Below are positions 44,345 to 62,468 of a stretch of DNA of 64,000 bases, in pieces. How positions within the stretch are numbered: position 1 is the first letter of the stretch; every line of letters starts with the position of its first letter. Source of the DNA: Mycolicibacterium sp. HK-90 (GTDB lineage Bacteria; Actinomycetota; Actinomycetes; Mycobacteriales; Mycobacteriaceae); the NCBI RefSeq assembly GCF_030486405.1, contig NZ_CP129613.1, positions 2,418,001-2,482,000 of the forward strand. The letters run 5' to 3'. A program made the position numbers and the translations under genes. Under the pieces are notes generated by a model. The model ran no database searches, was not told where the DNA came from, and worked only from the letters and a program-made list of their open reading frames with translations.

Positions 44345-44749
44345 TTAGGGCTTGTTGGTGAACCAGAGGTTTTCCTCGCGCAGGCTGCGGCTGCGCCAGC
44401 CGTCGGGTGTGCGCACCAGTTCGTGGTGGTAGTACCCGCCGCAGGCGCTCATCTCGGCCATTCCGGGTAGCTGCATGGGGTTGTAGAACATCGCCCGCAC
44501 CGTCGCGGTGTCACCGTCGCTGTCGAGGATCTCGATGTTGGTGATGTAGTGCATGCTCCACGGAATCACCCCGAAGTTGGCGGCGAACCAGCCGACCACG
44601 TCATCGCGGGTGCCCACCACGGCGCCCGCCGACGAATAGTCGATGTGGGCATCCTCGGTGAACACCGACCGGTACAGCTCCCAGTCCTTGGAGTCGACCG
44701 CCCGCGCGTAGCGGTACAGCAGGGCCGAGATGTCGGAATACTCGCTCAC
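44345..44749 (-). CDS. SnoaL-like/NTF2-fold protein
   Basis: The 134-residue protein has a SnoaL_4-type fold: SALLYRYARAVDSKDWELYRSVFTEDAHIDYS, MHYITNIEILDSDGDTATVRAMFYNP and WRSRSLREENLWF. Members are small hydrolases, isomerases or dehydratases, such as limonene epoxide hydrolase and ring hydroxylase partners. The GTG start overlaps the aldehyde dehydrogenase stop (GTGA), so the two act together. The reaction is not predictable. Confidence 0.83.
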   Translation of the reverse strand: MSEYSDISALLYRYARAVDSKDWELYRSVFTEDAHIDYSSAGAVVGTRDDVVGWFAANFGVIPWSMHYITNIEILDSDGDTATVRAMFYNPMQLPGMAEMSACGGYYHHELVRTPDGWRSRSLREENLWFTNKP

Positions 44750-46230
44750 TCGGGCATGCCGATGGTCTTGGACTCGAAGTACTCCTTGAAGCCTTCCTCG
44801 CCGTTGCGCCGGCCCAGGCCGCTCTGCTTGGAGCCGCCGAACGGGCTGTTGATGCCGAAATGGCTGCGGCTGTTGATGGTGACGTTGCCGGTCCGGATGC
44901 GACGCGCGATGGCGAAGGCTCGGTCCACGTCGCCGGACGAAACCTCGCCGGACAGGCCGTAGATGGAGTTGTTGGCGATGGCGACCGCCTCGTCGTCGGA
45001 ATCGTAGGGCGTCACCGTCAAGACCGGGCCGAAGATCTCCTCCTGGGCCACCTGCGAATCGGGGTCGACATCGGCGAGCAGGGTGGGCTGGGTGTAGTAC
45101 CCCGTCGGCAGGTTCTCCGGAACACCGCCGCCGGTGACCAGCCGGGCGCCGGAATCGATGCCGGATTTGATGAGCCCGAGCACCTTCTCGCGCTGAGTGG
45201 CGCTGATCTGCGGGCCCTGCATGATGCCCGGCGTCCACGGGTCGCCGACCGGGAAGTTCTCCATCGCGCCCTTGAGCAGCTCGACGCCCTCGTCGTAGCG
45301 GCTGCGGGGGAGCAGGATCCGGCTGGGCAGGATGCAGGACTGCCCGCTCATGACGCAGGCCATCATCGCCGCGATCGGCAGCGCAGAGTTGAAGTCCGCG
45401 TCGTCGAGCACGATGTGGGCGGATTTGCCGCCCAGCTCGAGCATGGTCTTCTTGACCGTGGAGGCACCGGCGGCCAGGATGGCGCGTCCGGTCGCGGTCG
45501 ACCCGGTGAAGGTGATCATGTCGACCCGCGGGTCCGCCGACAGGGCGGCACCGACCTCGTTGGCATTGGACACCACGACGTTGAACACGCCGGCCGGGAT
45601 GTCGGTGTGCTCGGCGACGATGCGGCCCAGCTCGGTACCCGACCACGGGGTGAGCTGCGCCGGCTTGAGCACCACGGTGTTGCCGGCCATCAGCGCCGGG
45701 ACCGTCTCGGCGACGTTGAGATAGAACGGGACGTTCCACGGAGTGATCGCGCCGACCACGCCGACCGGCTCGTAGGCGATCTTGCGCCGGGCTGGCCCCA
45801 GTTGGGTCTGGTGCACGCCGTTGTCGACGACATAGTCGAAGTTCTTGCCGTGCTCGGCCCAGTGCTTGACCTCGCCGATCGGGTCTTCGATCTGTGAGCC
45901 CGTCACGGTCACCGGACAACCGACCTCGGTGACCAGGATCCGGCGCAGCCGCTCCTTTTCGGCCTCCAGCGCGTCGTGCAGCTGCATCAGGCAGTGGTAG
46001 CGGAACTCGACGTCGCGACTCCAGTCGGTTTCGTCGAACGCGCGCCGCGCGGCGCCCACGGCGCGCTCGACGTCGGCCACGGTGCCGTCGGTCGCCTGGC
46101 CGGCCACCTGCTCGCTGGCGGGATGGATGACGTCGAATTTCGCACCGCTGCCGGTGTATTGGAGTTCACCATCGATGAGCATCCGCTCGTCACCGGCGAG
46201 CACGCCGGTGTCGCTCTGCACCTGAGTCAT
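44746..46230 (-). CDS. Aldehyde dehydrogenase
   Basis: The enzyme has about 494 residues with the ALDH features: GAITPWNVPFYLNVAETVPA, VLKPAQLTPWSG, TFTGSTATGRAI, the general base in LELGGKSAHIV, the catalytic Cys in SGQSCILPSR and the C-terminal FGGSKQSGLGRRNGEEGF. It oxidises an aldehyde to an acid with NAD(P). I start it at MTQVQSD (46230). The island operator is 11 bp upstream, between this gene and the TetR gene before it. Confidence 0.92.
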   Translation of the reverse strand: MTQVQSDTGVLAGDERMLIDGELQYTGSGAKFDVIHPASEQVAGQATDGTVADVERAVGAARRAFDETDWSRDVEFRYHCLMQLHDALEAEKERLRRILVTEVGCPVTVTGSQIEDPIGEVKHWAEHGKNFDYVVDNGVHQTQLGPARRKIAYEPVGVVGAITPWNVPFYLNVAETVPALMAGNTVVLKPAQLTPWSGTELGRIVAEHTDIPAGVFNVVVSNANEVGAALSADPRVDMITFTGSTATGRAILAAGASTVKKTMLELGGKSAHIVLDDADFNSALPIAAMMACVMSGQSCILPSRILLPRSRYDEGVELLKGAMENFPVGDPWTPGIMQGPQISATQREKVLGLIKSGIDSGARLVTGGGVPENLPTGYYTQPTLLADVDPDSQVAQEEIFGPVLTVTPYDSDDEAVAIANNSIYGLSGEVSSGDVDRAFAIARRIRTGNVTINSRSHFGINSPFGGSKQSGLGRRNGEEGFKEYFESKTIGMPE

Positions 46231-46241
46231 GTCGAACAGCT

Positions 46242-46265
46242 TTACAAAAATTGCGGAGCGTGTCA
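46242..46265. promoter_or_regulatory. Island operator A (TTACA-N14-TGTCA) before the aldehyde dehydrogenase
   Basis: TTACA at 46242-46246 and TGTCA at 46261-46265 are separated by exactly 14 bp. The TTACA side is 11 bp from the ALDH ATG. It has the same spacing and orientation as the sites at 48116, 52129 and 55530. It gives ALDH-SnoaL a promoter region of its own inside the minus-strand unit. Confidence 0.65.
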
Positions 46266-46368
46266 CCCCTTTGAAAGAACCATTGACCGATCGGTAAGTC
46301 TCTGCGATCGTAGAGTTTCGTAGTCGCGGATCGGGAATGTCGAAGGGAAACGGCGAGGTGGAGGCTGG

Positions 46369-46932
46369 TCAGTCCGGATCGGACTGCTTGATGCCGACGG
46401 CGTGGCGTAGTTGGGCCAGGAACTGGTCGTCGTCGTCGCTGCGGACGATGTAGTGCGAAACCGCGACCCGGATCGCGGTGGCCGCCTTCACGGGGGCGTT
46501 GGCGCCCGACAGCAGTTTGAGCAGCCGCGCCCGCATGATGGGAATGACGTTGGCCAGCTGGGCGATCACCACTTCGGGTTCGATGTCGACCAGCCGGACG
46601 CCGGAATACGACTGCTGATACTGCACGATGAATCGCAGTGCCGCGTCGAGTTTCTCGTTGCCCCGCAGGCCCACGGTGGCGCGGCTGATGCCATGGTCGA
46701 ACATTTCGCGTTCGTGGGTACCGAACGCGTCGAGCAGCTCCTGCTTGTCGGCGAACCATCGATACAGCGTGGGCCGGGAGACCCCGGCCTGCAGCGCCAC
46801 CTCGGAGAGGCTCAGTTTCGTCTGCCCGCTGCGGGCCAGCACCTCGGCGGTTGCCACCAGGATCCGGTGGCGCGTCGAGGTGTCTTCTACTGATACGTCC
46901 CGCTGCGCGGGTACAGGTTCATTCACGTCCAA
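46369..46932 (-). CDS. TetR-family regulator 1 of the catabolic island
   Basis: The 187-residue protein has the helix-turn-helix KLSLSEVALQAGVSRPTLYRWFADKQELLDAF. A C-terminal domain with VQYQQSYSGVRLVDIEPE is shared almost word for word with the TetR protein at 51582-52118. The near-identical DNA-recognition helix in the two implies the same operator. It lies between the APH-like and ALDH genes, 37 bp after the former. Confidence 0.9.
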   Translation of the reverse strand: MDVNEPVPAQRDVSVEDTSTRHRILVATAEVLARSGQTKLSLSEVALQAGVSRPTLYRWFADKQELLDAFGTHEREMFDHGISRATVGLRGNEKLDAALRFIVQYQQSYSGVRLVDIEPEVVIAQLANVIPIMRARLLKLLSGANAPVKAATAIRVAVSHYIVRSDDDDQFLAQLRHAVGIKQSDPD

Positions 46933-46969
46933 GCCTTGGTTGATCGAGGTTCACCAAATGGTAGGACCA

Positions 46970-48106: not shown

Positions 48107-48115
48107 TCGGCAAGT

Positions 48116-48139
48116 TTACAAATTTGCGACAGGTTGTAA
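48116..48139. promoter_or_regulatory. Island operator D (TTACA-N14-TGTAA), fully symmetric
   Basis: TTACA (48116-48120) and TGTAA (48135-48139) are 14 bp apart, and the symmetry extends to TTTACAA-N12-TTGTAAA-type arms (7-bp arms, the best palindrome of the four sites). It lies between the divergent APH-like and CoA-transferase genes, 9 bp before the APH ATG and 23 bp before the CoA-transferase ATG. Confidence 0.68.
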
Positions 48140-48162
48140 AGCGGTTTCGGGAAGGAGCGGCG

Positions 48163-49344
48163 ATGGCGGGTCCGATGGAGGGGTTTCGGGTCGTCGAGTT
48201 GGGCGTCTGGGTTGCGGCGCCGGCCGCCGGGGCGATACTCGCCGACTGGGGTGCTGACGTCATCAAGATCGAACCGCCGTCTGGCGACCCCGCGAGGACC
48301 TTCGGCCGGATGCTCGGCATCGACCCGGAGCTCGGTGTGGCCGCCAATCCGCCCTTCGAGATGGACAACCGCTCCAAACGCAGCATCGTGCTCGACCTCG
48401 GCACTGCCGAGGGCCGGCACACGGCGCTGGAATTGCTCTCCAACGCAGACGTTTTCCTGACCAATGTGCGGCCGGCCGCGCTGCGGCGGCTACAGCTCGA
48501 CTTCGAGACGGTGGCGGAACGCAATCCGCGCCTGGTGTACGGCCTGGTCACCGGGTACGGCCTGGCCGGGCCGGAGGCGGACCGGGCGGCCTACGACGTC
48601 GCCGCGTTCTGGGCCCGCGCCGGGCTGGCCAACCTGCTCACCCGCCCGGGCGACACTCCGCCTTTCCAGCGCGGCGGAATGGGGGACCACTCCGCCGGGA
48701 TGACGTTGGCTGCCGCGGTGTGCGCCGCCCTACTGGCCCGAAACCGCACGGGCACCGGCCAATTGGTCACCACATCGCTGTACCGCCAAGGGGCCTACAC
48801 CGTCAGCTTCGATCTCAACACCCTGCTGATGAGCGGGGAGCAGATCGCGATCGGGCAGCGGGAGGCGATGGCCAACCCGTGCATGAACAACTACACCGCG
48901 GGTGATGGGCAACGCTTCTGGGTCGTCGGCCTCCAAGGGGACCGGCACTGGCCTGCCTTGTGCCGGGTGGTGTCCCGGGAAGAATGGCTCACCGACGCGC
49001 GTTTCGCCACGGCGCGGGACCGATACGTCAACGCCCGCGAACTGATCGCCGAACTGGACGGTATCTTCGCCGGCCATCCGATGGACTACTGGGCCGCGCT
49101 GTTCGACGGCGAGCCGGACTTCTTCTGGTCGCCGATCAACAGCCTCGATGACGTCATCGCCGATGAGCAGTTTCACGCGGCCGGCGGCATTGTCGAAGTC
49201 CCCGACGGTGTTTCGACGGTTCCGATGGTGGCCAGCCCGGCCGACTTCTCGGCCACGCCGTGGCAGCCACGTATGGTGGCGCCGGCCCTCGGTGAGCACA
49301 CCGACGAGATCCTGGCCGAGCTGCGCGGCAGTCAGGATCGTTGA
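48163..49344 (+). CDS. CaiB/BaiF-type family III CoA transferase
   Basis: The 393-residue protein has the family N-terminus (FRVVELGVWVAAPAAGAILADWGADVIKIE), FEMDNRSKRSIVLDL and the catalytic-Asp region near AGLANLL. It transfers CoA between acids. GGGAAGGAG precedes the ATG. It would activate an acid product of the island. Its 3' end overlaps the convergent GH3 gene by 13 bp. Confidence 0.9.
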   Translation: MAGPMEGFRVVELGVWVAAPAAGAILADWGADVIKIEPPSGDPARTFGRMLGIDPELGVAANPPFEMDNRSKRSIVLDLGTAEGRHTALELLSNADVFLTNVRPAALRRLQLDFETVAERNPRLVYGLVTGYGLAGPEADRAAYDVAAFWARAGLANLLTRPGDTPPFQRGGMGDHSAGMTLAAAVCAALLARNRTGTGQLVTTSLYRQGAYTVSFDLNTLLMSGEQIAIGQREAMANPCMNNYTAGDGQRFWVVGLQGDRHWPALCRVVSREEWLTDARFATARDRYVNARELIAELDGIFAGHPMDYWAALFDGEPDFFWSPINSLDDVIADEQFHAAGGIVEVPDGVSTVPMVASPADFSATPWQPRMVAPALGEHTDEILAELRGSQDR

Positions 49345-51545
49345 GCGTTGATGCCCGCGAGCAGTTCGTCCAGCTGCTGACGGGTGACCTTGCCACCCGA
49401 GAATCCGGCCATCCGCCCGATCGGTACGGATTCCAGCATCCGCATCAGGTTGGCGCCGAGCGCGGAATCGACTGAACCGAACGGGGACGCGCTGCCCAGC
49501 ACCGACAGGATCGTCTGCGCCGCCACGGGATCGGCGAGCAGCTCACCCAGTGTCGATTCTCGGGTGAAGGGCCGGGTCGGCTCGTCACCGTCCAGCGTCA
49601 CCGACGCGCTCAGCCGAAGGTCGCGGCTCGACGCGCCGACCGACATCAGGTACTCGCCGGCCTCGACCACCCAGCGTCCCGCATCCGGACTCCAATAGGC
49701 GAGATCGGCTCGCCTGACGGTGATGTCGATCGTGCGGCGCTCATCCGGTTCGAGGGTGACGCCGCCGAACCCGGTCAGCCACCGCGTCGGCCGGCCGACG
49801 GCGGATCCGGGGAGTCCGGCATAGACCTGGACCACCTCTCGACCCGCCCGGGAACCGGTGTTGGTCACGGTCAACCGCACGGAAACCCCGTCGGCGGTGG
49901 CGGTGACCTCGAGGTCGGTGTAGCCGAAAGTCGTGTAGGACAGGCCGTGCCCGAACGGGAAGGCCACCGGCATGTCCCGGGCGTCATACCAGCGGTACCC
50001 GACGAACATCCGCTCGCCGTAGACGGTATGACCGACCTCGGGCGGGAAATTCAGGTAGGCCGGAGAATCCTGCAGCCGCAGCGGCACGGTCTCGGCCAGC
50101 CGGCCCGAGGGATTGACGATGCCGAACAGCACGTCGGCCAGCGCGCCGCCCCCGGCCTGTCCGAGCAGGGCCCCGTCGACGATGGCCGGGGCCAGGCCGG
50201 CGACGGCGTCGAGCCGCACCACACCGCCGTGCGACAACACCACCACGGTGCGGGGCTGTACCTCGACCACCGCGCGCAACAGGTCGATCTGTGCGGCGGG
50301 CAGGTCGATGTGCGTGCGGTCGTAGCCCTCGGACTCCTCCTCGGCAGTGAGGCCCAGGAACACGATGGCCGCCTCGGCCGCCTTCGCCGACGTCACCGCA
50401 GCGGTGATGTCGGTGCCGGGGCAGTGGCTGACCGGGTGATCGCCTGCGAGCCTGCGGATCTCGTCCAGTGGAACATCGAGCCGGGTCGGGTTCACGTGGG
50501 AGCTGCCGCCGCCCTGATATCTCGGCTCCTGCGCGAACCCGCCGATGACCGCCAGCGGCGCAGGAGCCAGCGGCAACAGCTCGTCATCGTTCTTCAGCAG
50601 GACGATGGACTGCCGGGCGGCCTGACGCGCCAGCGCATGATGATCATCGATGTCGAATGATGTTGGAGTGTCGTGACTTTGGGTGACCTTACCGGTCAAT
50701 CCGGCCACCCGGCCGGCGGCGCGGGCGACAGCGTCGGCCGCCAGTGCTCCGTTCTGGACCGCAGCCACCACCTCGCAGTCGGAGACACCACCGGTCGAGG
50801 GCATCTCCAGATCCAGGCCCGCGGTCACCGCGGCGACCCGGTCGGCCACCGCACCCCAGTCGCTGACCACGACTCCGTCGAAACCCCATTCGTCGCGCAA
50901 CACCGTCGTCAACAGCCAGGTGTTCTCGGCGGAGAAGACCCCGTTGATCCGGTTGTAGGAACACATCACCGTCCACGGCGCCGCCTCGCGGATCACGCGC
51001 TCGAACGCCCGCAGATAGATCTCCCGCAATGTCCGCTCGTCGACATCGGAGCTCGCGCGCATCCGGTCGTGCTCGGCGTTGTTGACGGCGAAATGCTTCA
51101 CCGACGCGCCGACACCCCGGCTCTGCACACCGCGCACCCATGCGGCACCGAGCACGCCGGACAGCAGCGGATCCTCCGAGTAGTACTCGAAGTTGCGTCC
51201 GCAGCGCGGATCGCGCTTGATGTTGACACCCGGACCGAGCAGCACGTGCACGCCCAACGCCCGGGATTCGTCGCCGAGAGCTCGGCCGATTCGTTCCACC
51301 AGCTCGGCGTCCCAGGACTGGCTGAGTCCGACTGCAGGCGGAAAACAGGTCGCCGGCTCACTGCCGGAGATGCCGAGATGGTCTGTCGCGCTGCCGGATT
51401 GGCGACGCACGCCATGCGGGCCGTCGGTCAGCACGATCGAGGGCACCGGACCGATCGCCTTCGTGGTCCAGAAACTCGCACCGCTGCCGAGCGCGGCCTG
51501 TTCGGTCAGGTCAAGCCCGACGATGAGATCAGCTGAGTCGGTCAC
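49332..51545 (-). CDS. Glycoside hydrolase family 3 beta-glucosidase-like protein
   Basis: The 737-residue GH3 enzyme has the (beta/alpha)8 domain with TDGPHGVR, LLGPGVNIKRDPRCGRNFEY, KHFAVNNAEHDR and the nucleophile Asp in GVVVSDWGA. A second domain (SIVLLKNDDELLPLAP) and a fibronectin-III-like domain (PFGHGLSYTTFGYTDLEV) follow. A C-terminal extension of about 85 residues follows the usual GH3 end. No signal peptide is seen, so it acts in the cytoplasm on an imported glycoside. It is downstream of TetR2 in one unit. The GTG start is at 51545. Confidence 0.92.
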   Translation of the reverse strand: MTDSADLIVGLDLTEQAALGSGASFWTTKAIGPVPSIVLTDGPHGVRRQSGSATDHLGISGSEPATCFPPAVGLSQSWDAELVERIGRALGDESRALGVHVLLGPGVNIKRDPRCGRNFEYYSEDPLLSGVLGAAWVRGVQSRGVGASVKHFAVNNAEHDRMRASSDVDERTLREIYLRAFERVIREAAPWTVMCSYNRINGVFSAENTWLLTTVLRDEWGFDGVVVSDWGAVADRVAAVTAGLDLEMPSTGGVSDCEVVAAVQNGALAADAVARAAGRVAGLTGKVTQSHDTPTSFDIDDHHALARQAARQSIVLLKNDDELLPLAPAPLAVIGGFAQEPRYQGGGSSHVNPTRLDVPLDEIRRLAGDHPVSHCPGTDITAAVTSAKAAEAAIVFLGLTAEEESEGYDRTHIDLPAAQIDLLRAVVEVQPRTVVVLSHGGVVRLDAVAGLAPAIVDGALLGQAGGGALADVLFGIVNPSGRLAETVPLRLQDSPAYLNFPPEVGHTVYGERMFVGYRWYDARDMPVAFPFGHGLSYTTFGYTDLEVTATADGVSVRLTVTNTGSRAGREVVQVYAGLPGSAVGRPTRWLTGFGGVTLEPDERRTIDITVRRADLAYWSPDAGRWVVEAGEYLMSVGASSRDLRLSASVTLDGDEPTRPFTRESTLGELLADPVAAQTILSVLGSASPFGSVDSALGANLMRMLESVPIGRMAGFSGGKVTRQQLDELLAGINAQRS

Positions 51546-51581: not shown

Positions 51582-52118
51582 TCAGTGTTGATGCTTCACC
51601 CTTGCTGCGTGGCGCAGCTGCGCCAGGAAATCATCGGCGTCATCGCTGCGCACCAGGTAGTGGCAGACCGCGACCCGCACCGCGGTGGCCGCGGCGATAT
51701 CGGCATCCGACCCGGTTGTCAGCCGTTGCAGGCGTTCCCGCATCAGCGGGATGACCTGGGCGAGCCGTCGGATGACGTGTTCGGGTTCGATGTCGATCAT
51801 CCGGAGCCCCGGGTACGACTGTTGGTATTCGACGACCGTACGCAGCGCCGCGTCCAGATGTTCGTCTTCGGGCAGACCGGCGGCGGCCTGCGCGACGGCC
51901 CGTTCGTAGAACTTGCGCTCCCACACCACGAACGCGTCGAGCAATTCCTGTTTGGAGGCAAACCAGCGGTAGAGCGTGGGCCTGGACACCCCGGCCTGCG
52001 AGGCGACCTCGGACAGGCTGAGCTTGGTCATCCCGTTCGCTCCGAGCACCTCGGCGGTGGCGGCCAGGATCCGTCCGCGGGTGCTGCTCTCGTCATCCAG
52101 GGCCGGTGATTCCGCCAT
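51582..52118 (-). CDS. TetR-family regulator 2 of the catabolic island
   Basis: The protein has about 178 residues and the helix-turn-helix KLSLSEVASQAGVSRPTLYRWFASKQELLDAF, nearly identical to regulator 1 at 46369-46932. The C-terminal domains also align (VEYQQSYPGLRMIDIEPE; LAQLRHA at the end). The ATG at 52118 is 10 bp from island operator B, which fits autoregulation. It leads the unit with GH3 and is divergent from the P450/ferredoxin unit. Confidence 0.9.
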   Translation of the reverse strand: MAESPALDDESSTRGRILAATAEVLGANGMTKLSLSEVASQAGVSRPTLYRWFASKQELLDAFVVWERKFYERAVAQAAAGLPEDEHLDAALRTVVEYQQSYPGLRMIDIEPEHVIRRLAQVIPLMRERLQRLTTGSDADIAAATAVRVAVCHYLVRSDDADDFLAQLRHAARVKHQH

Positions 52119-52128
52119 ACCCACAGCT

Positions 52129-52152
52129 TTACAAACTATCGCTGAACTGTCA
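52129..52152. promoter_or_regulatory. Island operator B (TTACA-N14-TGTCA) between TetR2 and P450 1
   Basis: TTACA (52129-52133) and TGTCA (52148-52152) are 14 bp apart. The site is 10 bp before the TetR2 ATG and 53 bp before the P450 start, so both could be repressed from it. Confidence 0.66.
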
Positions 52153-52205
52153 CGCTAATTCGTGGCGCGACACAGTCGTCGGACGCCCGTGCAGGAGGGA
52201 ACACC

Positions 52206-53473: not shown

Positions 53474-53665
53474 ATGCGCGTCGAGGTCGATCTGGGCAAG
53501 TGCACCGGGCACGGTATCTGCGAATCGATCGCCGAGGACGTGTTCGAGGTGGCCGACGAGGGCATGGTGCACATCCACGGCGACGATCACCTGGAAAGCG
53601 ATCGGGAACGGTTGCAGCAGGCCGTGACTCAATGCCCGGCAGGAGCTTTGCGTCTGGAGGGCTAG
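53474..53665 (+). CDS. Small ferredoxin, 3Fe-4S type
   Basis: The 63-residue protein has CTGHGIC and a later QCPAGAL, giving the CxxxxxC...CP pattern of actinobacterial 3Fe-4S ferredoxins that serve P450s. It starts 11 bp after the P450 stop, so the pair is a unit. A ferredoxin reductase was not found in the island. Confidence 0.92.
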   Translation: MRVEVDLGKCTGHGICESIAEDVFEVADEGMVHIHGDDHLESDRERLQQAVTQCPAGALRLEG

Positions 53666-53673
53666 GTGCCGAG

Positions 53674-53722
53674 TGGCCAGTTGTGTCACACGATTTCCCA
53701 GAATTCGTGTCGTAACTGGCCG
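53674..53722. repeat. Imperfect inverted repeat after the ferredoxin gene
   Basis: The arms GGCCAGTT...ACACGA and TCGTGT...AACTGGCC (about 20 bp each, with a 2-base length difference) surround an 11-base loop. It starts 8 bp after the ferredoxin stop and is a candidate terminator or mobile palindrome. Confidence 0.5.
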
Positions 53723-53755
53723 TTGGGCGACTGAACCGTCAGCCCCCCGTCCCCG

Positions 53756-53815
53756 GCGAGCAGACGCGAAATCGCATGAAAACCCTTGAAAAAGTGCGAT
53801 TCTGTGTCTGCTCGC
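53756..53815. repeat. Second palindromic repeat between convergent ferredoxin and thioesterase genes
   Basis: 21-bp arms (53756-53776 and 53795-53815), whose outer ten bases GCGAGCAGAC are perfect, match at 18 of 21 positions around an 18-base loop. It ends one base before the thioesterase stop codon. Position and layout are like the element at 44281-44343, but the sequence differs. Confidence 0.7.
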
Positions 53816-53816
53816 G

Positions 53817-54647: not shown

Positions 54648-55517
54648 TCAGTGGTGGTGATGCGTGTCGTGGTCGCCCGGTGCGGGAGTTTCGACCATCA
54701 GGGCGTCGACGCGCGACAGTTTGGTGCCGACCAGGCGCTCCGGATAGGCATCCGTGGTGGTGACCAGGAACAGGGTCCGTCCTTCGATACCGCCGAGCGC
54801 ACACGCGATCGCGGTGCGCCCACCGGTGTCGACGCGGTCGGTCACCGCAGAACCGTCGGGCGCGAGGCGCTGGAACTCGTGCGCCAGGGTCAGCGCCACC
54901 CACACCCCGCCTTCCGCGTCGATCGCAATGCCGTCCGGTGGACCGTCGAGGCCCTCGGCGAACACTCGCCGGTCGGTCAAACCGCCGTCGGGGGAGATCG
55001 TGAACGCACTCAGCCGGCGCGCGGTGGACTCCGCGACGATCAGCGTGGTGCCGTCCGGGGTGATGGCCATCCCATTGGGAAAGTCGAGGTGCTCGGCCAC
55101 CACTCGAACGGGGTCGGCCGCCGCATCCGTGTCGATGCACACGATGACCCCGTCGGTACGGGCCTGCGATCCGACATAGGCCCTGCCGCTCTCGTCGACC
55201 ACCATGTCACCGAGCGCTGCGGGAACCAGATCGCCGAGATCGGCCAGCAACTCGATGCTGTCGCCGTCATAGCGCAGTATCTGACGACGCTGGGTGGATA
55301 CGATCAGCAGCGTGCCGTCGGGCCGAAATCCCAGTCCGGACGGGGAATGTCCGGGCACAGGCAGGGTCGTCATGGAACCGGACAGGTTGACCGTGTGCAC
55401 GGCCTCGCCCAGCATGTCGGAGAACCAGAGCAGACCTTCGAACCACCGTGGGCCTTCACCGAAACAGAAGCCGTGCGCCAGTTCGGTTGTGCCGGCCTGT
55501 TCGGTTCCCGCCGTCAT
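54648..55517 (-). CDS. SMP-30/gluconolactonase-like protein
   Basis: The 289-residue beta-propeller protein has the SMP-30 features (GFCFGEGPRWFEGLLWFSDM, FPNGMAITPDGTTLIVAEST, GPPDGIAIDAEGGVWVAL with metal-binding Glu, Asn and Asp). It would hydrolyse a lactone, such as one formed by the Baeyer-Villiger-like enzyme of the same island. The C-terminus ends in a natural His-rich tail (HDTHHHH). Island operator C lies 12 bp before its ATG. Confidence 0.87.
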   Translation of the reverse strand: MTAGTEQAGTTELAHGFCFGEGPRWFEGLLWFSDMLGEAVHTVNLSGSMTTLPVPGHSPSGLGFRPDGTLLIVSTQRRQILRYDGDSIELLADLGDLVPAALGDMVVDESGRAYVGSQARTDGVIVCIDTDAAADPVRVVAEHLDFPNGMAITPDGTTLIVAESTARRLSAFTISPDGGLTDRRVFAEGLDGPPDGIAIDAEGGVWVALTLAHEFQRLAPDGSAVTDRVDTGGRTAIACALGGIEGRTLFLVTTTDAYPERLVGTKLSRVDALMVETPAPGDHDTHHHH

Positions 55518-55529
55518 ACTCGCGCGCCT

Positions 55530-55553
55530 TTACAAAACACGCCATAAGTGTCA
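55530..55553. promoter_or_regulatory. Island operator C (TTACA-N14-TGTCA) between SMP-30 and NIPSNAP-like genes
   Basis: TTACA (55530-55534) and TGTCA (55549-55553) are 14 bp apart. Two further TGTCA copies follow at 55565 and 55571 toward the plus-strand gene. The site serves the divergent SMP-30 unit and the seven-gene plus-strand unit. Confidence 0.66.
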
Positions 55554-55593
55554 CGCTCACCGGGTGTCACTGTCAACCACCGGAGCGCGGTAG

Positions 55594-56298
55594 ATGAAGA
55601 AGTTCTACGGCCACACGCTGCTGTATCTGCACGAGACCATCGATCTGGGTTCGGGTCGGACCGATCAGTTCAGCGCCCCGTTCGGTGAGCTGTACCAGCC
55701 GATGATGGAAGACCTGGGTGCGCGGCTGTTCGCGATCTGGGAGACCACGCCCTACAACGGGCACTGGCCCAAGGTGACGATCATCTGGGAGATCGACGCA
55801 TTCGCCGACTATGCCCGGATCGGCAAGGCGCAGGCGGTCGGCGGCAGCCACGAGAAGCAGGCTCTGCAGTGGGCCGCCTACCTGTCCGAGATCGGCGCCC
55901 GCGGCGAGGGGCGAATCATGTACGCCGGCAAGTACAACCGGACACTCGCTCAGCTCCAGGAAGCAAACTTCGGTGCCGGCCTGGTGATCCAGGAGATCAT
56001 GCAAACCAAGCCCGGGCGCCAGGACGACTACATCCGCGAGCTCGAGCGGCTGTATGTGCCCTGGTCGGAGAGCACCGGCAAGCGGTGGCTGGGCTCGTTC
56101 ATCACCACCTTCCGGTTCAACGAGGTGATCCACTACTGGGCACTCGATGACGACTGGGATTGCTTCGAAAATCATTACCCCTCCTGGAAGGGCAACCCAC
56201 CCGCCGAGATCGTCACCTGGATGAGCGTGGCGCCCGCGCTGCGTGACGGCTGGGAGGATTCGATCCTCTCGGCCCTGCCGCCGTCACCGCTGAAGTAG
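55594..56298 (+). CDS. NIPSNAP-like dimeric alpha/beta-barrel protein
   Basis: The 234-residue protein is not confidently recognised. It has aromatic-rich repeats that look like two ferredoxin-like (ABM/NIPSNAP) modules: LFAIWETTPYNGHWPKVTIIWEIDAFADYARI and VIQEIMQTKPGRQDDYIRELERLY...FRFNEVIHYWALDDDWD. Small proteins of this kind are common companions of P450 or monooxygenase catabolic clusters. It is the first gene of the seven-gene unit. Confidence 0.65.
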   Translation: MKKFYGHTLLYLHETIDLGSGRTDQFSAPFGELYQPMMEDLGARLFAIWETTPYNGHWPKVTIIWEIDAFADYARIGKAQAVGGSHEKQALQWAAYLSEIGARGEGRIMYAGKYNRTLAQLQEANFGAGLVIQEIMQTKPGRQDDYIRELERLYVPWSESTGKRWLGSFITTFRFNEVIHYWALDDDWDCFENHYPSWKGNPPAEIVTWMSVAPALRDGWEDSILSALPPSPLK

Positions 56299-56305: not shown

Positions 56306-57535
56306 ATGAATCAACCTGTGCTGCAGGACTTCACCTACGATCCGTTCGATCCGGACGTGATGGCCGATCCGCTGCCGTACTACCGGATCCTGCGCGACGA
56401 GTACCCGGTGTACTACATCGACAAGTGGGACACCTACGCGCTGTCCCGGTTCGACGACATCTGGGAGGTGCTCGGGGTCAACGACGGAACGTTCGTCGCC
56501 TCCGAGGGCACGCTGCCCGCCGCCAATGTCCTGGCCCACCGCAACAACGGCCCGGTGCCCGATCCGCCGTTGCACCCCATGCCTTTCCATGCCACTTTCG
56601 ACTCGCCGATCTACGAGGACGTACGGCGGTGCACCTCGGCCCAGTTCCGGCCGCGATCGGCGGCCAAGCTGGCCGACCGGATCCGGACGCTGGCCAACCA
56701 GCGTCTCGACGAGCTGCTGCCGCGCGGAAGTTTTGACCTGACCCAGGATTACGGCGGCATCGTCGCGGCCGCGATGGTGTGCGAATTCGTCGGACTACCG
56801 GTCGATCTCGCCCCGGAGGTGCTGGCAACGGTCAACGCCGGCAGCCTCGCGCAGCCGGGCGAAGGGGTGGAGGTCGGCAACGCCAGGCCCGGTTATCTGT
56901 CGTATCTGACCCCGATCATCGAGCGCCGGCGCGCCGAGGGGCACGACGGCAGCGTGCCGATCGCCGACAGCCTGATCGGGCACCGGCTACCCGACGGATC
57001 GGCCCTGGACGACATGGAAGCGGCGGTGCAGATGCTCGGCGTGTTCATCGGCGGCACCGAAACGGTCCCGAAGATCACCGCGACCGGGCTGTGGCAATTG
57101 CTGCGGCATCCGGAGCAATTGGCCGCGGTGCGTTCCGATCTCGGTGCCAACGTGCCCGTCGCCCGGGAAGAGATCATCCGCCACAGCGCACCCGCGCAGT
57201 GGTTCGCCCGCACGGTGCGGCGGCCCTACACCATCCACGGCACCACCATGAATCCCGGCCAACGCGTCATCACCTTGCTGGCCTCGGCCGCCCGCGACGA
57301 ACGTGAGTACGACAATCCGGACGACTTCGTGTGGAACCGGCCGATCGAACGGCTGCTGTCGTTCGGCCATGGTCAGCACTTCTGCCTCGGAGTGCACGTG
57401 GCCCGGCTGGAGATCACCATCATGATCCAGGAGTGGCTCAAACGTGTGCCGGAGTACCGCATCGACGAGGCCGCGGCCTCCCGGCCTCCGTCCAGTTTCC
57501 AGTGGGGCTGGAACAACATCCCCGTGGAGGTGTGA
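56306..57535 (+). CDS. Cytochrome P450 (2)
   Basis: The 409-residue P450 has the I-helix motif GVFIGGTETVPKI, K-helix EEIIRH and the haem loop SFGHGQHFCLGVHVARLE. The threonine of GGTET is the proton-relay residue. It is distinct from P450 1, so the pathway has two hydroxylations, or each enzyme has its own substrate. The gene starts 7 bp after the NIPSNAP-like gene. Confidence 0.93.
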   Translation: MNQPVLQDFTYDPFDPDVMADPLPYYRILRDEYPVYYIDKWDTYALSRFDDIWEVLGVNDGTFVASEGTLPAANVLAHRNNGPVPDPPLHPMPFHATFDSPIYEDVRRCTSAQFRPRSAAKLADRIRTLANQRLDELLPRGSFDLTQDYGGIVAAAMVCEFVGLPVDLAPEVLATVNAGSLAQPGEGVEVGNARPGYLSYLTPIIERRRAEGHDGSVPIADSLIGHRLPDGSALDDMEAAVQMLGVFIGGTETVPKITATGLWQLLRHPEQLAAVRSDLGANVPVAREEIIRHSAPAQWFARTVRRPYTIHGTTMNPGQRVITLLASAARDEREYDNPDDFVWNRPIERLLSFGHGQHFCLGVHVARLEITIMIQEWLKRVPEYRIDEAAASRPPSSFQWGWNNIPVEV

Positions 57536-57536: not shown

Positions 57537-58505
57537 ATGTGGTGCTACCGCCTCGTGGCACCGTTCACGTTCGAGCGAACCGACATCGCCGCGCCCTCAC
57601 CGGAATCTCTGGGCGAGGGCCAGGTCCTGCTGGACTTCCTCGCCGCCGGGATCTGCGGCAGTGATCTCCCCGGATTCCGCGGCACCCAGGGCAAACTGCC
57701 CGGGGACACCGGCCCCCGCGCCGCCGAGATGGACGGCTTCCCGATCCACGAGATCGTCGGAGAGGTGCTGGCCAGCCGGCATCCCGACCATCGGCCGGGG
57801 GAGCGCGTGGTCGGTTGGGCATCCGGGTTCGACGGTCTGATGGGCCGCGTGGTCTCCGACGGGGCGGGGTTGGTGTCCTACGACCCCGCGCTGGCCCCCG
57901 AACTGGCCGTCGGGCTGCAACCATTGGCATGCGTCCTGTACGCCGTCGAGCAGCTGCCGGATCTGTCGGGCCGCCACGTCGCGATCATCGGACAGGGCTC
58001 CATCGGTCTGCTGTTCTCCTACGTCGCAAAGGCTTTGGGGGCAACGCGGGTGACCGGGGTAGACCCGGTGGACCGCACCGCGATCGCCTCTCGGTTCGGG
58101 GTCGACGACGCGGTCCGGGCCACCAGCGATCGCTGGGTCCGCCACCTGGGGGTCACCGGCAAGCCCGACGTCGTCATCGAGGCGGTCGGACATCAGGTCG
58201 CCACCCTCAACCACGCGTTGGAGGCCGCTGCCTTCGGCGGCACGGTGTTCTACTTCGGCGTGCCCGACGACGACAGCTATCCGATCAGCATGCGCACCAT
58301 GTTGCGCAACAATCTCACGCTGAAATCCGGTGTCACACTGGATCGTCAACGCGTTCTACGCCGGGCCGACGAGTTCGCCCGGGACCACCCCGACCTGTTG
58401 CCCGGCTACGTGACCCACACTTTCGGCTCGGACGATGTGCCGGCAGCGTTCGAATTCGCCTGCCGTCCATTGCCTGAGCGGGTCAAGATCGCGATCACCC
58501 GATGA
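57537..58505 (+). CDS. Zinc-type medium-chain alcohol dehydrogenase
   Basis: The 322-residue MDR protein has the catalytic zinc Cys in GICGSD, His/Glu in GFPIHEIVGEV, the third ligand region in PLACVLYAVEQL and the NAD-binding GQGSIGLLFSYVAKALGA. The four-Cys structural zinc site is missing. It starts one base after the P450 stop. It would oxidise an alcohol made by the P450s to a ketone. Confidence 0.87.
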   Translation: MWCYRLVAPFTFERTDIAAPSPESLGEGQVLLDFLAAGICGSDLPGFRGTQGKLPGDTGPRAAEMDGFPIHEIVGEVLASRHPDHRPGERVVGWASGFDGLMGRVVSDGAGLVSYDPALAPELAVGLQPLACVLYAVEQLPDLSGRHVAIIGQGSIGLLFSYVAKALGATRVTGVDPVDRTAIASRFGVDDAVRATSDRWVRHLGVTGKPDVVIEAVGHQVATLNHALEAAAFGGTVFYFGVPDDDSYPISMRTMLRNNLTLKSGVTLDRQRVLRRADEFARDHPDLLPGYVTHTFGSDDVPAAFEFACRPLPERVKIAITR

Positions 58506-59287
58506 ACCGCAGCAGATTGCAGGACGCGTTGGCATCCAACGCCCACGTCTGGGGTGGTTGGGTGGTCGCGCCGACGATGATCGGTCCCGAGGAGTTCGCG
58601 GCCGCCGGATATCACTACGTCGGATTCGACCTGCAGCACGGGTATCTCGACGATGCCGACGTGGCCGTGCTGCTACGCCGGCTCGAGCACGTGCCGATCG
58701 CCACCGCGGTGCGATTGCCGTCGGCCGATCCCGCGCCGATCGGCCGGGTGCTCGACGCCGGGGCCGATGCGGTGATCATCGCGATGGTGGAATCCGCCGA
58801 GCAGGCCGCCGCGGCGGTCGCGGCCACCCGATATGCCCCCGGCGGGGTCCGCAGCTTCGGGCCGCTGCGGGCCGGCCTGGGCCAGGACACCGCCGAGTTG
58901 GAAGCCCGGGTGAGTGTGTTCGCGATGATCGAGACGGCGCCGGGCCTGGACGCCGCCGAGCAGATCTGTGCGGTGCCCGGGCTCACCGGGATCTACGTCG
59001 GTCCCGCGGATCTGGCGATCTCGATGGGGTATCAGCCCGTGGACGCCTGGACCCACCCCGAGGTGCGGGCGGCGATGGTCAAGATCCACGCCGCTGCCCA
59101 CGCGGCCGGCCTGGTCGCCGGAATCCATGCCGGGGCAGGGAAACTCGGAAAAGCCATGGCCGAACTGGGGTTCCAGATGATCACCCTGGCCTCGGAATCG
59201 CAGGCGTTGCGCCGCGGCGCCGCCGAGCATCTCGACGAAGCCGCAGGGCAGGCCGTGCCGGCCACCGAACGAGGAGGCTACAACTGA
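58502..59287 (+). CDS. HpcH/HpaI-family aldolase
   Basis: The 261-residue protein has the family pattern: WGGWVVAPTMIGPEEFAAAG, YHYVGFDLQHGYLDD, ADAVIIAMVESAEQA, FAMIETAPGLDAAEQIC (metal-binding Glu) and GIYVGPADLAISMG. It would cleave a 2-oxo-hydroxy acid to pyruvate and an aldehyde. The start overlaps the ADH stop and its stop overlaps the SDR start, so it is coupled in both directions. Confidence 0.9.
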   Translation: MNRSRLQDALASNAHVWGGWVVAPTMIGPEEFAAAGYHYVGFDLQHGYLDDADVAVLLRRLEHVPIATAVRLPSADPAPIGRVLDAGADAVIIAMVESAEQAAAAVAATRYAPGGVRSFGPLRAGLGQDTAELEARVSVFAMIETAPGLDAAEQICAVPGLTGIYVGPADLAISMGYQPVDAWTHPEVRAAMVKIHAAAHAAGLVAGIHAGAGKLGKAMAELGFQMITLASESQALRRGAAEHLDEAAGQAVPATERGGYN

Positions 59288-60030
59288 ACGCAGCACCAGA
59301 GCCCGGCAACTCGCGGGTGGCCTTGGTTACCGGGGCCGCCCGCGGACAAGGTGCCGCGATCGTGCGCCGGCTGGTGGCCGACGGGTACCGGGTCACCGCC
59401 GGGGACCACCTGATCGACGAACTCACCCCCACCACAACCGAGTTCGGCGACCACGTGTTGGCGGTCGAACTGGACGTGACATCGCCAGAGCACTGGCAGG
59501 CCGCAGTGGCAGCCACCGTGGCCCGATTCGGCGGGCTCAACGCGCTGGTGAACAACGCCGGTGTGCTGCACAGTGCCTCGATCGCCGAGGAAACCCCGAG
59601 CGGTTTCGAGGGCTTGTGGCGGGTGAACTGCCTGGGGCCCTTCCTAGGACTGCAGGCAGCGCTCGAGCCGCTGCGGCGGGCGGACAACGCCGCGGTGGTG
59701 AACACCTGCAGCACCGGCGCGCTCCGCCCGTTTCCGCACCACGCGGCCTACGGTTCGTCGAAGTGGGCACTGCGCGGTCTCACTCAGCTGGCAGCTGCCG
59801 AACTCGGCCGCGACGGGATCCGGGTCAACGCCATCTTTCCCGGACCCGTCGAGACGCCGATGCTCGACGACGCCACCCAGGCCCGGCTGGCGGAGCGGGC
59901 GACGTTGGGACGGCTGGGCAAACCGAGCGAGATGGCCGACGCCGTCGCGTTCCTGTTGTCGGACCAGGCGGCGTTCATCACCGGCTCCGAACTCGTCATC
60001 GACGGCGGCCAATGTCTGCAGATCGGATAG
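59284..60030 (+). CDS. Short-chain dehydrogenase/reductase with an apparent CTG start
   Basis: The protein has about 248 residues and the classical SDR motifs: VTGAARGQGA, NNAGVL, catalytic Ser in NTCSTGALRPF, YGSSK (YxxxK) and the C-terminal DGGQ. No ATG, GTG or TTG lies at a suitable place. A CTG at 59284 has a perfect GGAGG 6 nt upstream and overlaps the aldolase stop (CTGA). A GTG at 59317 would begin at the first beta strand and lacks a binding site. Either way the enzyme is a NAD(P)-dependent oxidoreductase of the island. Confidence 0.87.
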   Translation: MNAAPEPGNSRVALVTGAARGQGAAIVRRLVADGYRVTAGDHLIDELTPTTTEFGDHVLAVELDVTSPEHWQAAVAATVARFGGLNALVNNAGVLHSASIAEETPSGFEGLWRVNCLGPFLGLQAALEPLRRADNAAVVNTCSTGALRPFPHHAAYGSSKWALRGLTQLAAAELGRDGIRVNAIFPGPVETPMLDDATQARLAERATLGRLGKPSEMADAVAFLLSDQAAFITGSELVIDGGQCLQIG

Positions 60031-60035
60031 CGCGG

Positions 60036-61544
60036 ATGACCACGTCACCGACCGTCGGGATCATCGGAGCCGGCCCGGGTGGGCTGGCGCTCGGAATCTT
60101 CCTGAAAAAGGCGGGTTTCGCGGATTTCACGATCTTCGACCGCGAGGACGGGGTCGGCGGAACGTGGCGGATCAACACGTACCCGGGCCTGGCCTGCGAC
60201 GTGAAGTCACACCTGTACTCGTACTCATTCGATCTCAACGCCAATTGGAGCCGGCTCTGGGCCGGCCAACCCGAGATCCTGGAATATTTCGAACGGTGCG
60301 CCGAACGCTACCGCCTGGGCCCGCACCTGATGCTCGACACCGAGATCACCGCGGCGCGTTGGGACCCGGCCACCAGCAGCTGGACCCTGACCACAGCTTC
60401 CGGTGACCAGCACCGGTTCGACATCGTGGTCTCTGCGATCGGACTGTTCACCCAGCCGTTGCAACCGGACCTGGTGGCCGAGGAACCGTTCACCGGCACC
60501 CTCATGCACACCGCCGACTGGGATCACGAGGTGAAGCTCGACGGGGCGAAGGTGGCCGTGCTCGGAACCGGATCGACTGCTTCCCAAGTGGTTCCAGAGA
60601 TCGCCAAGGTGGCCGAGAAGGTGTACTCGGTGCAGCGCTCGCCGACCTGGGTCCTACCGAAGCCCGACCGGCCGTATACCGAGCGGGAACGCTGGCTGTT
60701 CGCCCATGTGCCGCTGGCGAAGAAGATCTACCGGACCCGGTTGTGGCTGCGCAGCGAGTCGAACATCGCCGTCATCGAGAACGGCAGCGACAAGACACAG
60801 GAATTCAAGGCGATCGCGCTCAATCTCCTCGAATCAACAGTGGCCGACGAGGAATTGCGGGCCCGGCTGACCCCCGACCACCCGCTGGGCTGCAAGCGGC
60901 TGGTGTTCTCACCCGACTTCATCGCGACCCTGACCCGGCCCAACGTCGAGGTGGTGTCCAGCCCGGCCCGGGCGCTGCGGTCCGTGGGACTGGTCACCGA
61001 GGACGGCCGCGAACTCGACGTCGATGTGGTGGTGTGCGCCACCGGGTACGCGGCCGCCGACTACCTGGGGCAGATCGAGGTCACCGGCGAGGGTGGGGTG
61101 TCGCTGCGGGACACCTGGAGTGAGGGCGCGTTCGCCTACCTGGGGATGACGGTGCCGGGCTTCCCGAACTTCTTCATGCTCTACGGCCCGAACACCAACG
61201 TCGGCTCCAACAGTGTCATCTTCATCCTGGAGGCGCAGGCTCGCTACGTGGTGCGGGCACTCAAACACCTTCGGCGCAAACGCAAGTCATATGTGGCGGT
61301 ACGCCCTGAAGCCATGGCCGCATTCCTTGCCGACATCGACCGGTGGATGCAGGGCACGGTCTGGCTGACCCGGTGCAGCAGCTACTTTCGGGCGCCGAGC
61401 GGCCGGGTGGTCACCCAATGGCCGCGCAGCGCCCGCGCGTTCTGGTCGATGACGCGGCGGTTCCGGGCCGCCGAGTACACGTTCGACCCGCCCGCCACCC
61501 GGCCGGCCCCGGTGCCCGCCGCCGCCGATCGAACAGATGGCTGA
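60036..61544 (+). CDS. Flavin-dependent monooxygenase, type I Baeyer-Villiger-like
   Basis: The 502-residue protein has two Rossmann motifs (IIGAGPGGLALG and VLGTGSTASQ) and, between them, FTGTLMHTADWD, which fits the BVMO fingerprint FxGxxxHxxxW(P/D). GVGGTWRINTYPGLACDV and the late CATGY are also typical. It would insert oxygen into a ketone to give an ester or lactone. It follows the dehydrogenases that would supply the ketone and precedes a hydrolase that could open the ester. Confidence 0.92.
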   Translation: MTTSPTVGIIGAGPGGLALGIFLKKAGFADFTIFDREDGVGGTWRINTYPGLACDVKSHLYSYSFDLNANWSRLWAGQPEILEYFERCAERYRLGPHLMLDTEITAARWDPATSSWTLTTASGDQHRFDIVVSAIGLFTQPLQPDLVAEEPFTGTLMHTADWDHEVKLDGAKVAVLGTGSTASQVVPEIAKVAEKVYSVQRSPTWVLPKPDRPYTERERWLFAHVPLAKKIYRTRLWLRSESNIAVIENGSDKTQEFKAIALNLLESTVADEELRARLTPDHPLGCKRLVFSPDFIATLTRPNVEVVSSPARALRSVGLVTEDGRELDVDVVVCATGYAAADYLGQIEVTGEGGVSLRDTWSEGAFAYLGMTVPGFPNFFMLYGPNTNVGSNSVIFILEAQARYVVRALKHLRRKRKSYVAVRPEAMAAFLADIDRWMQGTVWLTRCSSYFRAPSGRVVTQWPRSARAFWSMTRRFRAAEYTFDPPATRPAPVPAAADRTDG

Positions 61545-61547
61545 GCC

Positions 61548-62468
61548 GTGTCCTGGCTCGAACGCCTCGATCCGGCGTTGCGCGGGTTCGCCGACGCGCG
61601 CACCGACCTGAGCACCGATCAGCTGGGGGCGGTGCGCGCATCGTTGGATCAGCGTCGTCGTGACGCCGCACAGGCCCTGGACACGCCCGGCGTGGAGATC
61701 ATCGGGGGCCGCGTGGCACTCGGCCGGCGCAGCATCCCGGTGCGCATCTACCGCGGCGGGCCCACGCCGTCGCCCGCGGTGATCTACTGCCATTCGGGAG
61801 CCTTCGTACTGGGCAACCTCGATACCGATCAGATCCAATGTGTGGAGCTGGCCCGGCGGGCCCGCTGCACGGTGATCGCGATGGAATACCGGTTGGCTCC
61901 CGAGTATCCGTATCCGGCCGCGTTCGACGATGCGATGGTGGTTCTCAATTGGGCGGCCACCCTGGCCGCCGACCTCGACATCGACGCGGGACGCATCGCG
62001 GTGGCGGGAAGCAGTGCCGGCGGTGCGCTGGCGGCCCTGCTGGCGCAGCACTCCGCCGCGGGCTCCGCTCCACCCATCGTGTTCCAGGCGCTACACCAGC
62101 CGGTACTCGACGACCGGCCCACCGGTTCGAAAGGCGAGTTTGCCGACACCCCGGGCTTCGACGGCCCGGCGACCATGGCGATGTGGCGGCACTACCTCGG
62201 CCGCGACCTGCCGGAGGCAGCCGTCCCGGCACGTGCCGGCGGCTTGGCGGGCGTGGCTCCGGCCCTGATCACCTGCTCGGAACTCGATCCGCTGCGCGAC
62301 GAGGCGCTCGACTATGCCCGTCGCCTGCTGGCAGACGGAGTTGCCACCGAACTGCATTTGTTCCCGGGCACCTGTCACGGGTTCGATTCGCTGCTACCTG
62401 AGTGGGAGGTCAGCCAACAGCTCTTCGCCCTCCAAGGTGCGGCGATGCGGCGCGCACTGCATGGATGA
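61548..62468 (+). CDS. Alpha/beta hydrolase of the hormone-sensitive lipase type
   Basis: The 306-residue protein has GSSAGG around the nucleophile Ser, DPLRDEALDYA with the acid and TCHGFD with the His. The oxyanion motif is CHSGAF instead of the usual HGGG. It would hydrolyse the ester or lactone made by the preceding monooxygenase. The GTG start is 4 bp after its stop. It is the last gene of the island. Confidence 0.88.
   Translation: MSWLERLDPALRGFADARTDLSTDQLGAVRASLDQRRRDAAQALDTPGVEIIGGRVALGRRSIPVRIYRGGPTPSPAVIYCHSGAFVLGNLDTDQIQCVELARRARCTVIAMEYRLAPEYPYPAAFDDAMVVLNWAATLAADLDIDAGRIAVAGSSAGGALAALLAQHSAAGSAPPIVFQALHQPVLDDRPTGSKGEFADTPGFDGPATMAMWRHYLGRDLPEAAVPARAGGLAGVAPALITCSELDPLRDEALDYARRLLADGVATELHLFPGTCHGFDSLLPEWEVSQQLFALQGAAMRRALHG

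Follow-up and report, generated by a model that had tools for sequence, protein, structure and literature searches.

A putative operator shared by oxygenase and acyl-processing genes points to a probable TetR-controlled catabolic regulon in Mycolicibacterium sp. HK-90 and related species

We have analysed a gene island in Mycolicibacterium sp. HK-90, carried on a 64,000-nt stretch of DNA (the window; positions 2418001-2482000 of the single-contig 6.49-Mb genome, G000), in an organism that we take to belong to the M. fortuitum group. The island interval, window positions 44345..62468, is flanked by rlmN and a gene for an EspI-like ATPase and holds 18 genes, which by strand and spacing fall into seven transcription units: aldehyde dehydrogenase (ALDH)-SnoaL; APH-TetR1; CoA-transferase; TetR2-GH3; CypA-ferredoxin; SMP30-thioesterase; and a long unit running from a NIPSNAP-like gene (nips) through CypB, alcohol dehydrogenase (ADH), HpcH, short-chain dehydrogenase (SDR) and Baeyer-Villiger monooxygenase (BVMO) to LipW. 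An earlier reading of the letters, the original prediction, had described a cluster of 17 genes in six units. The cluster and every enzyme family it named were recovered at about the places given, by profile matches and signatures, with the counts corrected to 18 and seven; the SnoaL-like and NIPSNAP-like genes had gone unnamed. The intergenic stretches contain a repeated 26-bp site, TTTACA-N14-TGT(A/C)A(A/C), an imperfect palindrome with four copies in the island. Genes and sites are as follows.

44345..44749, minus strand: SnoaL_4-like protein (Pfam PF13577, 104 bits)
44746..46230, minus strand: ALDH (PF00171, 481.7 bits)
46241..46266, no strand: putative operator 1, TTTACA-N14-TGTCAC, upstream of the ALDH-SnoaL unit
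46369..46932, minus strand: TetR1 regulator (PF00440), 64% identical to TetR2 across 168 residues
46970..48106, minus strand: APH/EcKL-like kinase (PF01636, 55.5 bits; PF02958, 54 bits)
48115..48140, no strand: putative operator 2, TTTACA-N14-TGTAAA, with perfect inverted arms, between the APH-TetR1 unit and the CoA-transferase
48163..49344, plus strand: family III CoA-transferase (PF02515, 368.7 bits)
49332..51545, minus strand: GH3 glycosidase, accessory, function not closely assignable (PF00933/PF01915)
51582..52124, minus strand: TetR2 regulator (PF00440, 53.5 bits)
52128..52153, no strand: putative operator 3, TTTACA-N14-TGTCAC, between the TetR2-GH3 and CypA-ferredoxin units
52206..53462, plus strand: CypA, a cytochrome P450 of the CYP268 family (best PDB match CYP268A2, 6bld, 451 bits)
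53474..53665, plus strand: ferredoxin (PF13370, 41.1 bits), presumably of the 3Fe-4S type
53817..54638, minus strand: 4HBT_3 acyl-CoA thioesterase-like protein (PF20789, PF13622)
54648..55517, minus strand: SMP-30/gluconolactonase-like lactonase (PF08450, 163 bits)
55529..55554, no strand: putative operator 4, TTTACA-N14-TGTCAC, between the SMP30-thioesterase and NIPSNAP-to-LipW units
55594..56298, plus strand: NIPSNAP-like protein, product of the marker gene nips (PF07978, 20.3 bits, under the gathering score of 22.3)
56306..57535, plus strand: CypB, the second cytochrome P450 (PF00067, 64.1 bits; best PDB match CYP130, 138.6 bits)
57537..58505, plus strand: zinc-type ADH (PF00107, PF08240)
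58502..59287, plus strand: HpcH/HpaI class II aldolase (PF03328, 100.6 bits)
59290..60030 (start approximate), plus strand: SDR (PF13561, 195.3 bits)
60036..61544 (scanned from 60057), plus strand: type I BVMO (PF00743, 52.1 bits)
61548..62468, plus strand: LipW-like esterase (PF07859, 192.5 bits; LipW 3qh4, 376.7 bits)
62655..63905, plus strand: EspI-like MinD/ParA ATPase (PF01656), present in 16/80 compared loci
63930..64000, minus strand: 3' end of an SRPBCC-like gene continuing past the window (L120:1930-2466; weak PF10604, 14.5 against 27.4 bits)

Active-site signatures were found where expected: the heme motif of CypB, CxxHxxC...CP in the ferredoxin, YxxxK in the SDR, GSSAG in the esterase, VSDW in GH3 and GQSC in the ALDH. 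The BVMO carries an intact fingerprint, FTGTLMHTADWD, and the combination of FxGxxxHxxxW(P/D) with two Rossmann motifs makes it a type I enzyme; its best PDB match is the steroid monooxygenase 4ap3 (215.8 bits). The sole failure among the signatures checked was CypA, which does not match the standard heme pattern. Its heme loop, GFGGGGPHFCLG, is one residue apart from that of its closest solved relative CYP268A2, GFGGGGVHFCLG. P450s are assigned to a family above 40% identity and to a subfamily above 55%; with 209 of 412 residues identical (50.7%), CypA falls in the CYP268 family and outside subfamily CYP268A. For CypB no close solved relative appeared among the PDB matches. The nearest model to the ALDH is aldehy_Rv0768 (TIGR04284), with 607.8 bits and a cut-off of 775.

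All seven units begin next to one of the four putative operators, near the tetR genes. The leftward genes start 3 to 11 bases from the site, so that a bound repressor would cover their starts. When the whole genome was searched with the looser pattern KTKACA-N14-TGTMAM, each place being counted on both strands, eight places were found in 6.49 Mb, four of them in the island, against two for the reversed pattern used as a control. A further site at 2483254 (window coordinate 65254) lies between a DUF427 gene and the gene for a 205-aa protein, which is followed by a thioesterase-like gene; the island extends beyond the end of the window, to window coordinate ~66841. The 205-aa protein (L120:3358-3975, window-equivalent 65358-65975) matches no Pfam family, and diverged relatives 33-63% identical to it follow an operator in other species. 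Another site, at 661946, stands nine bases ahead of an acyl-CoA dehydrogenase (ACAD) gene, with a second thioesterase-like gene next. The last two, at 5040164 and 5736659, have weaker arms (GTTACA and GTGACA); the first has no adjoining island gene and the second only distant relatives of P450, ferredoxin and SDR (26-35%). As the reversed control also gives two places, we regard both as probably chance. In the source genome the site therefore adjoins all seven island units, the DUF427/SRPBCC-like unit, the 205-aa/thioesterase unit and the distant ACAD operon. The absence of an ACAD, as claimed by the original prediction, holds within 44345-62468 and fails for the set as a whole, since the ACAD at ~662 kb sits under the same operator.

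Conservation was followed with nips as the marker. Of 208 relatives found, the best 80 were kept as compared loci (1,539,106 bases in total), all from kindred species; the nearest, among these best 80, are from M. septicum, M. senegalense and a Mycobacterium sp., with nips identity up to 96%. The environmental species M. vanbaalenii and M. austroafricanum (L031 and L048) also carry the set. A gene was scored present at ≥45% identity across ≥45% of its length, and the counts are lower bounds because many loci end at contig ends or at the 10-kb flank. On this scale cypB was present in 79 loci, SMP-30 in 69, the thioesterase in 68, ADH in 67, HpcH and SDR in 66 each, LipW in 65 and BVMO in 61; TetR1 followed with 59, the CoA-transferase with 52, the ferredoxin and the SRPBCC-like gene with 51 each, CypA with 50 and TetR2 with 46; lower counts were obtained for ACAD (40), APH (38), a luciferase-like gene (34), ALDH (29), DUF427 (27) and SnoaL (25).

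The pair of arms separated by 14 bases occurs 253 times and in 80/80 loci, as against one occurrence in total for the twelve other spacers, 8-13 and 15-20. With 30 bp trimmed from the gene ends, no detected regulon gene contains any of the 253 copies, and the arms are conserved whereas most positions in the spacer and surroundings vary. An exact site is present at all 61 smp30|nips junctions, the position of operator 4, and at all 36 tetR2|cypA junctions, the position of operator 3, as well as at 27/27 srpbcc|acad, 10/10 tetR1|cypA and 7/7 tetR2|fdx junctions. At the aph|coat3 junctions (operator 2) it is exact in 30/38 and found in 36/38 when one arm mismatch is allowed.

The DNA-reading parts of TetR1 and TetR2 follow one consensus, SLSEVA(L/S)QAGVSRPTLYRWFA(D/S)KQELL, with near-identical helices. 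Given this shared part and the 64% identity of the two proteins, both probably bind the same site, and the 26-bp motif is, as far as comparison of sequences can tell, probably their operator. Since a site stands at the head of each unit holding a tetR gene, autoregulation is implied. We consider it likely, with a probability of roughly 0.7, that the genes form a substrate-inducible catabolic regulon under two paralogous TetR-type repressors, which would bind the operator and block both divergent promoters until a compound of the pathway frees them. The original prediction had taken the genes for a single functional unit whose oxidative steps follow on logically, a view to be given up should they fail to co-occur in related genomes; the set does co-occur in many relatives, with one operator in common.

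The motif could instead be the promoter of an alternative sigma factor, or the site of some other regulator. TTTACA resembles a -35 element, a GCT flank is conserved to the right of many sites, so that a rightward promoter may overlap them, and some sites lie far from island genes. A promoter would nevertheless have to serve divergent units both ways, keep a spacing of exactly 14, include one copy with perfect inverted arms, and stand between tetR1 and cypA in every one of the ten such junctions; we find this explanation improbable. The preferred reading, a TetR-controlled regulon, has a parallel in KstR, which also uses palindromic operators at divergent promoters, with sites that differ from the island operator. 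TetR1 and TetR2 score 24.3 and 26.5 bits with the KstR model NF033703 (cut-off 280), so neither is of the KstR type. The KstR and KstR2 regulons (PMC4482099) likewise join TetR-type regulators to catabolic genes, and differ from the island in that its 18 genes include no steroid ring genes.

Where parts of the set have moved, the site has moved with them. ACAD, which in some relatives lies inside the island with its own site, is 1.8 Mb away in the source genome with the site retained; the same separate arrangement was seen in the two relatives viewed (G020 and G049, ACAD 92% and 88% identical). In five of six further genomes (G018, G024, G043, G053, G093) the set is split, with an operator at each part. 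One place holds TetR, the site and CypA-ferredoxin, with nips ~1.5 to 2.2 kb from the site; in compared loci so arranged, L046 and L051 among them, cypB is visible behind nips. A second holds SMP30-thioesterase, the site, ADH-HpcH-SDR-BVMO-LipW, again the site and then an uncharacterised protein. A third, in four of the five, has the SRPBCC-like gene, the site and APH, to which G024 adds CoA-transferase, the site and ACAD. The sixth genome, G103, has a differently arranged set. In M. paraense (L067), among others, the set adjoins an FAD-oxidase gene and a GntR-type gene, and in L175 and L176 the same flank runs on into AMP-ligase, MlaE and Mce genes, which we take to be the mce1 neighbourhood. 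The shared site and the co-movement speak against the view that the genes are mere neighbours.

The distribution of the site follows that of nips. A nips match was found in 102 of 148 genomes of the genus, partial or in pieces in G071, G076 and G089. At the level of the order, 43 of 397 genomes have a match; 34 of these belong to the same genus, and the other nine comprise one at 50% identity and eight at 22-26%. Matches also occur in two Aldersonia genomes (79-80%) and one metagenome-assembled genome labelled Acidobacteria (87%). Scanning the 148 genomes with TTTACA-N14-TGTMAC and a control pattern gave 497 sites against 21 in the 102 genomes with nips, at least two sites being present in 100 of them, and 54 against 9 in the 46 genomes lacking it, with at least two sites in 13. 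We viewed 30 sites in those 13 genomes; 23 adjoin homologues of island genes, and in 12 of the 13 genomes one or more sites are so placed, the exception being G008, where two of four sites were viewed. The parts retained there belong to the acyl half: TetR, thioesterases, SMP-30, the luciferase-like protein, ACAD, DUF427 and CoA-transferase. Nine of the 13 genomes were searched whole for the oxygenase half (CypB at E≤1e-60, BVMO at E≤1e-100), and eight have neither a CypB match nor a BVMO match above 46% identity; the NIPSNAP-like protein, CypB and BVMO thus tend to disappear together. In L123, L126, L128 and L131 (from G057, G029, G074 and G023) similar sites reading TTTACAAAT...TGTAAC were seen with no island gene near; these may belong to a different, related regulator.

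GH3 deglycosylation had been predicted as the core first step of the pathway, and this claim is not supported: GH3 occurs in 13/80 loci, and in seven of the 51 informative loci, that is, those showing the CoA-transferase along with CypA, TetR2 or the thioesterase. Judged by this distribution, GH3 is an optional species-level add-on and not part of the core, and the idea of a glycoside as the core substrate lacks support. A route in which GH3 starts the breakdown of a terpenoid or steroid glycoside would suit the position of its gene, which follows tetR2 in the same orientation at a distance of 36 bp and is therefore probably under operator 3, and its best NCBIfam match, the exo-alpha-(1->6)-L-arabinopyranosidase model NF041610, which it misses by ~500 bits (803.5, equivalog cut-off 1300). 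Its rarity, together with the lack of a KstR-type regulator and of any steroid ring-cleavage family among the 18 genes, makes such a route very unlikely. A steroid substrate in general was set aside for the last two reasons; a search confined to the 18 island proteins gave no Pfam hit for KstD, KshA or HsaC.

The best fit, from the families present, would be degradation of a hydrophobic alicyclic or branched, terpenoid-like compound. In the likeliest order of steps, a guess from family knowledge, CypB and/or CypA (with the ferredoxin) would hydroxylate the substrate, ADH or SDR would turn the alcohol into a ketone, and the BVMO would insert oxygen, giving an ester or lactone to be opened by the LipW-like esterase or SMP-30. 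ALDH would yield an acid for activation by the CoA-transferase, ACAD (by dehydrogenation) and the thioesterases would process the CoA ester, and the HpcH aldolase would release a pyruvate-type unit. Pathways for cyclic monoterpenoid ketones, of the camphor and limonene/menthol type, proceed through an oxygenase, an alcohol dehydrogenase, a type I BVMO, a lactone hydrolase and CoA activation. The island shares these families, including P450, ADH and BVMO, and has beyond them the NIPSNAP-like protein, HpcH, SMP-30, a second P450, a family III CoA-transferase and a dedicated ACAD. CYP268A2 of M. marinum is reported to hydroxylate branched and isoprenoid-like compounds. The resemblance of CypA to it is why we favour a substrate of terpenoid-like or branched alicyclic type over a steroid, on evidence that is thin; of the terpenoid or steroid-like substrate originally predicted, the CYP268 family suggests the first part, and the second has no specific support. 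No described counterpart of the gene set was found in the openly licensed PMC papers searched, in agreement with the original prediction, and an earlier account may exist elsewhere.

The same enzymes could tailor an endogenous lipid or secondary metabolite in place of degrading a nutrient. Biosynthetic clusters can contain P450s, BVMOs and thioesterases as well as proteins of the SnoaL-like, SRPBCC-like and ABM types; several P450 and BVMO profile hits are to biosynthesis families, all far under the cut-off, and the acyl half adjoins MlaE/Mce-type genes in two relatives. Yet the Pfam hits for the 18 genes include no scaffold-forming enzyme (polyketide synthase, nonribosomal peptide synthetase or terpene synthase), CoA-transferase, ACAD, aldolase and ALDH are enzymes typical of catabolic pathways, and eight of the nine genomes examined lack the oxygenase half but keep the acyl half; tailoring is therefore unlikely. 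The presence of TetR-type regulators, a patchy distribution and an APH-like kinase would also agree with clearance of a toxic environmental compound, either a xenobiotic or a plant or fungal antimicrobial, that does not feed the cell. So simple a role would hardly call for the many downstream steps (CoA transfer, ACAD, aldolase, ALDH), and the 18 genes include no transporter, although in one relative, L175, an MFS gene lies within the set. We hold detoxification to be decidedly improbable.

Several observations weigh against a single catabolic regulon as we propose it. The 80 loci were selected by the marker and come from related species, so that locus counts are not independent events. At the aldh junction (operator 1) the site is exact in only 15/29 loci and present in 23/29 with one arm mismatch allowed; exact sites stand at 0/4 duf427|coat3 and 1/3 tetR1|coat3 junctions. 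Operators without island genes beside them occur in L197, L209, L212 and L214, and seven of the 30 sites viewed in genomes lacking nips are away from island genes. In L184, L186 and L187 (from G020 and G049) exact operators lie near other P450, ACAD-like (65%) or AMP-ligase genes, which suggests sister regulons with the same motif. A related regulator may accordingly share the site, and the edge of the regulon as drawn here is provisional. One genome lacking nips, G109, keeps both CypB (88%) and BVMO (80%). The order of steps is open to doubt because the P450, BVMO and SDR families are broad and the source genome has roughly 50 P450 genes (60 match pieces); the scheme gives no role to the APH-like kinase or to the SnoaL, DUF427 and 205-aa proteins.

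The NIPSNAP-like protein is among the best conserved of the set (mean column identity 89% in 28 sequences). A model built from these 28 close sequences (mean pLDDT 68.7, pTM 0.70, poor C-terminus) has two fused alpha/beta-barrel (ABM) domains; at such a pLDDT the fold matches are tentative. Single-domain NIPSNAP proteins were retrieved by Foldseek at a root-mean-square deviation (rmsd) of 2.6-3.6 Å, and 5kak and 1vqy (TMt 0.64-0.73 over 112-118 columns) place the protein, with the same reserve, in the NIPSNAP-type ABM fold. Foldseek also returned a marine protein with no annotation, coproheme decarboxylases, chlorite dismutases and a putative monooxygenase (E 4e-6 to 1e-3, TM 0.4-0.6, rmsd 6-9 Å). 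The chlorite dismutases and coproheme decarboxylases (Cld/ChdC) share the two-barrel plan, yet at 6-13% identity and the same high rmsd.

In 76/80 loci cypB starts ≤60 bp after nips, and in three of the other four the genes overlap or are 74 bp apart; nips remains with cypA-fdx where the regulon splits, and nips, CypB and BVMO are jointly absent from eight genomes. In another family of the order a 49%-identical copy lies between BVMO-like (35%) and LipW-like (33%) genes, which makes a role in the BVMO part as likely as partnership with a P450. A tentative and rather unlikely proposal is that the protein acts in the P450/BVMO step, either as an oxygenase of a novel type or as a partner that handles heme or substrate. 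This is opposed by G109, which has CypB and BVMO and no nips match, and by the eight relatives at 22-26% identity: in the four whose surroundings were read there is no CypA or CypB match, and three have a CoA-transferase.

Some features of the flanks and gaps were also noted. The converging ferredoxin and thioesterase genes leave a gap of 151 bp (window 53665-53817) with an inverted repeat seen by eye (GGCCAGTT...AACTGGCC). In seven close relatives (L001, L002, L004, L005, L007, L011, L012) an extra P450-like match, 25-26% identical to CypB and on the minus strand, lies between ferredoxin/CypA and the thioesterase, and this gap also holds an extra exact operator; the match is possibly a third P450 of the regulon. 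Just behind rlmN, at window 44270-44345, there is a long inverted repeat, likewise seen by eye (CTACGGTTTGTGACG...CGTCACAAACCGTAG), possibly a terminator. The SRPBCC-like gene, by its occurrence in the compared loci, belongs with the regulon. The EspI-like ATPase gene, which in some species is sited amid regulon parts, is probably outside the pathway.

The finding gathers orphan mycobacterial enzymes, namely two P450s, a BVMO, an ACAD, a NIPSNAP-like protein and several uncharacterised proteins, into one testable regulon. Its sharply defined site assigns distant genes to the pathway and offers an assay for the inducer, and hence for the substrate. Enzymes of the CYP268 and LipW types, in environmental as well as opportunistic mycobacteria, would also gain a place in a pathway.

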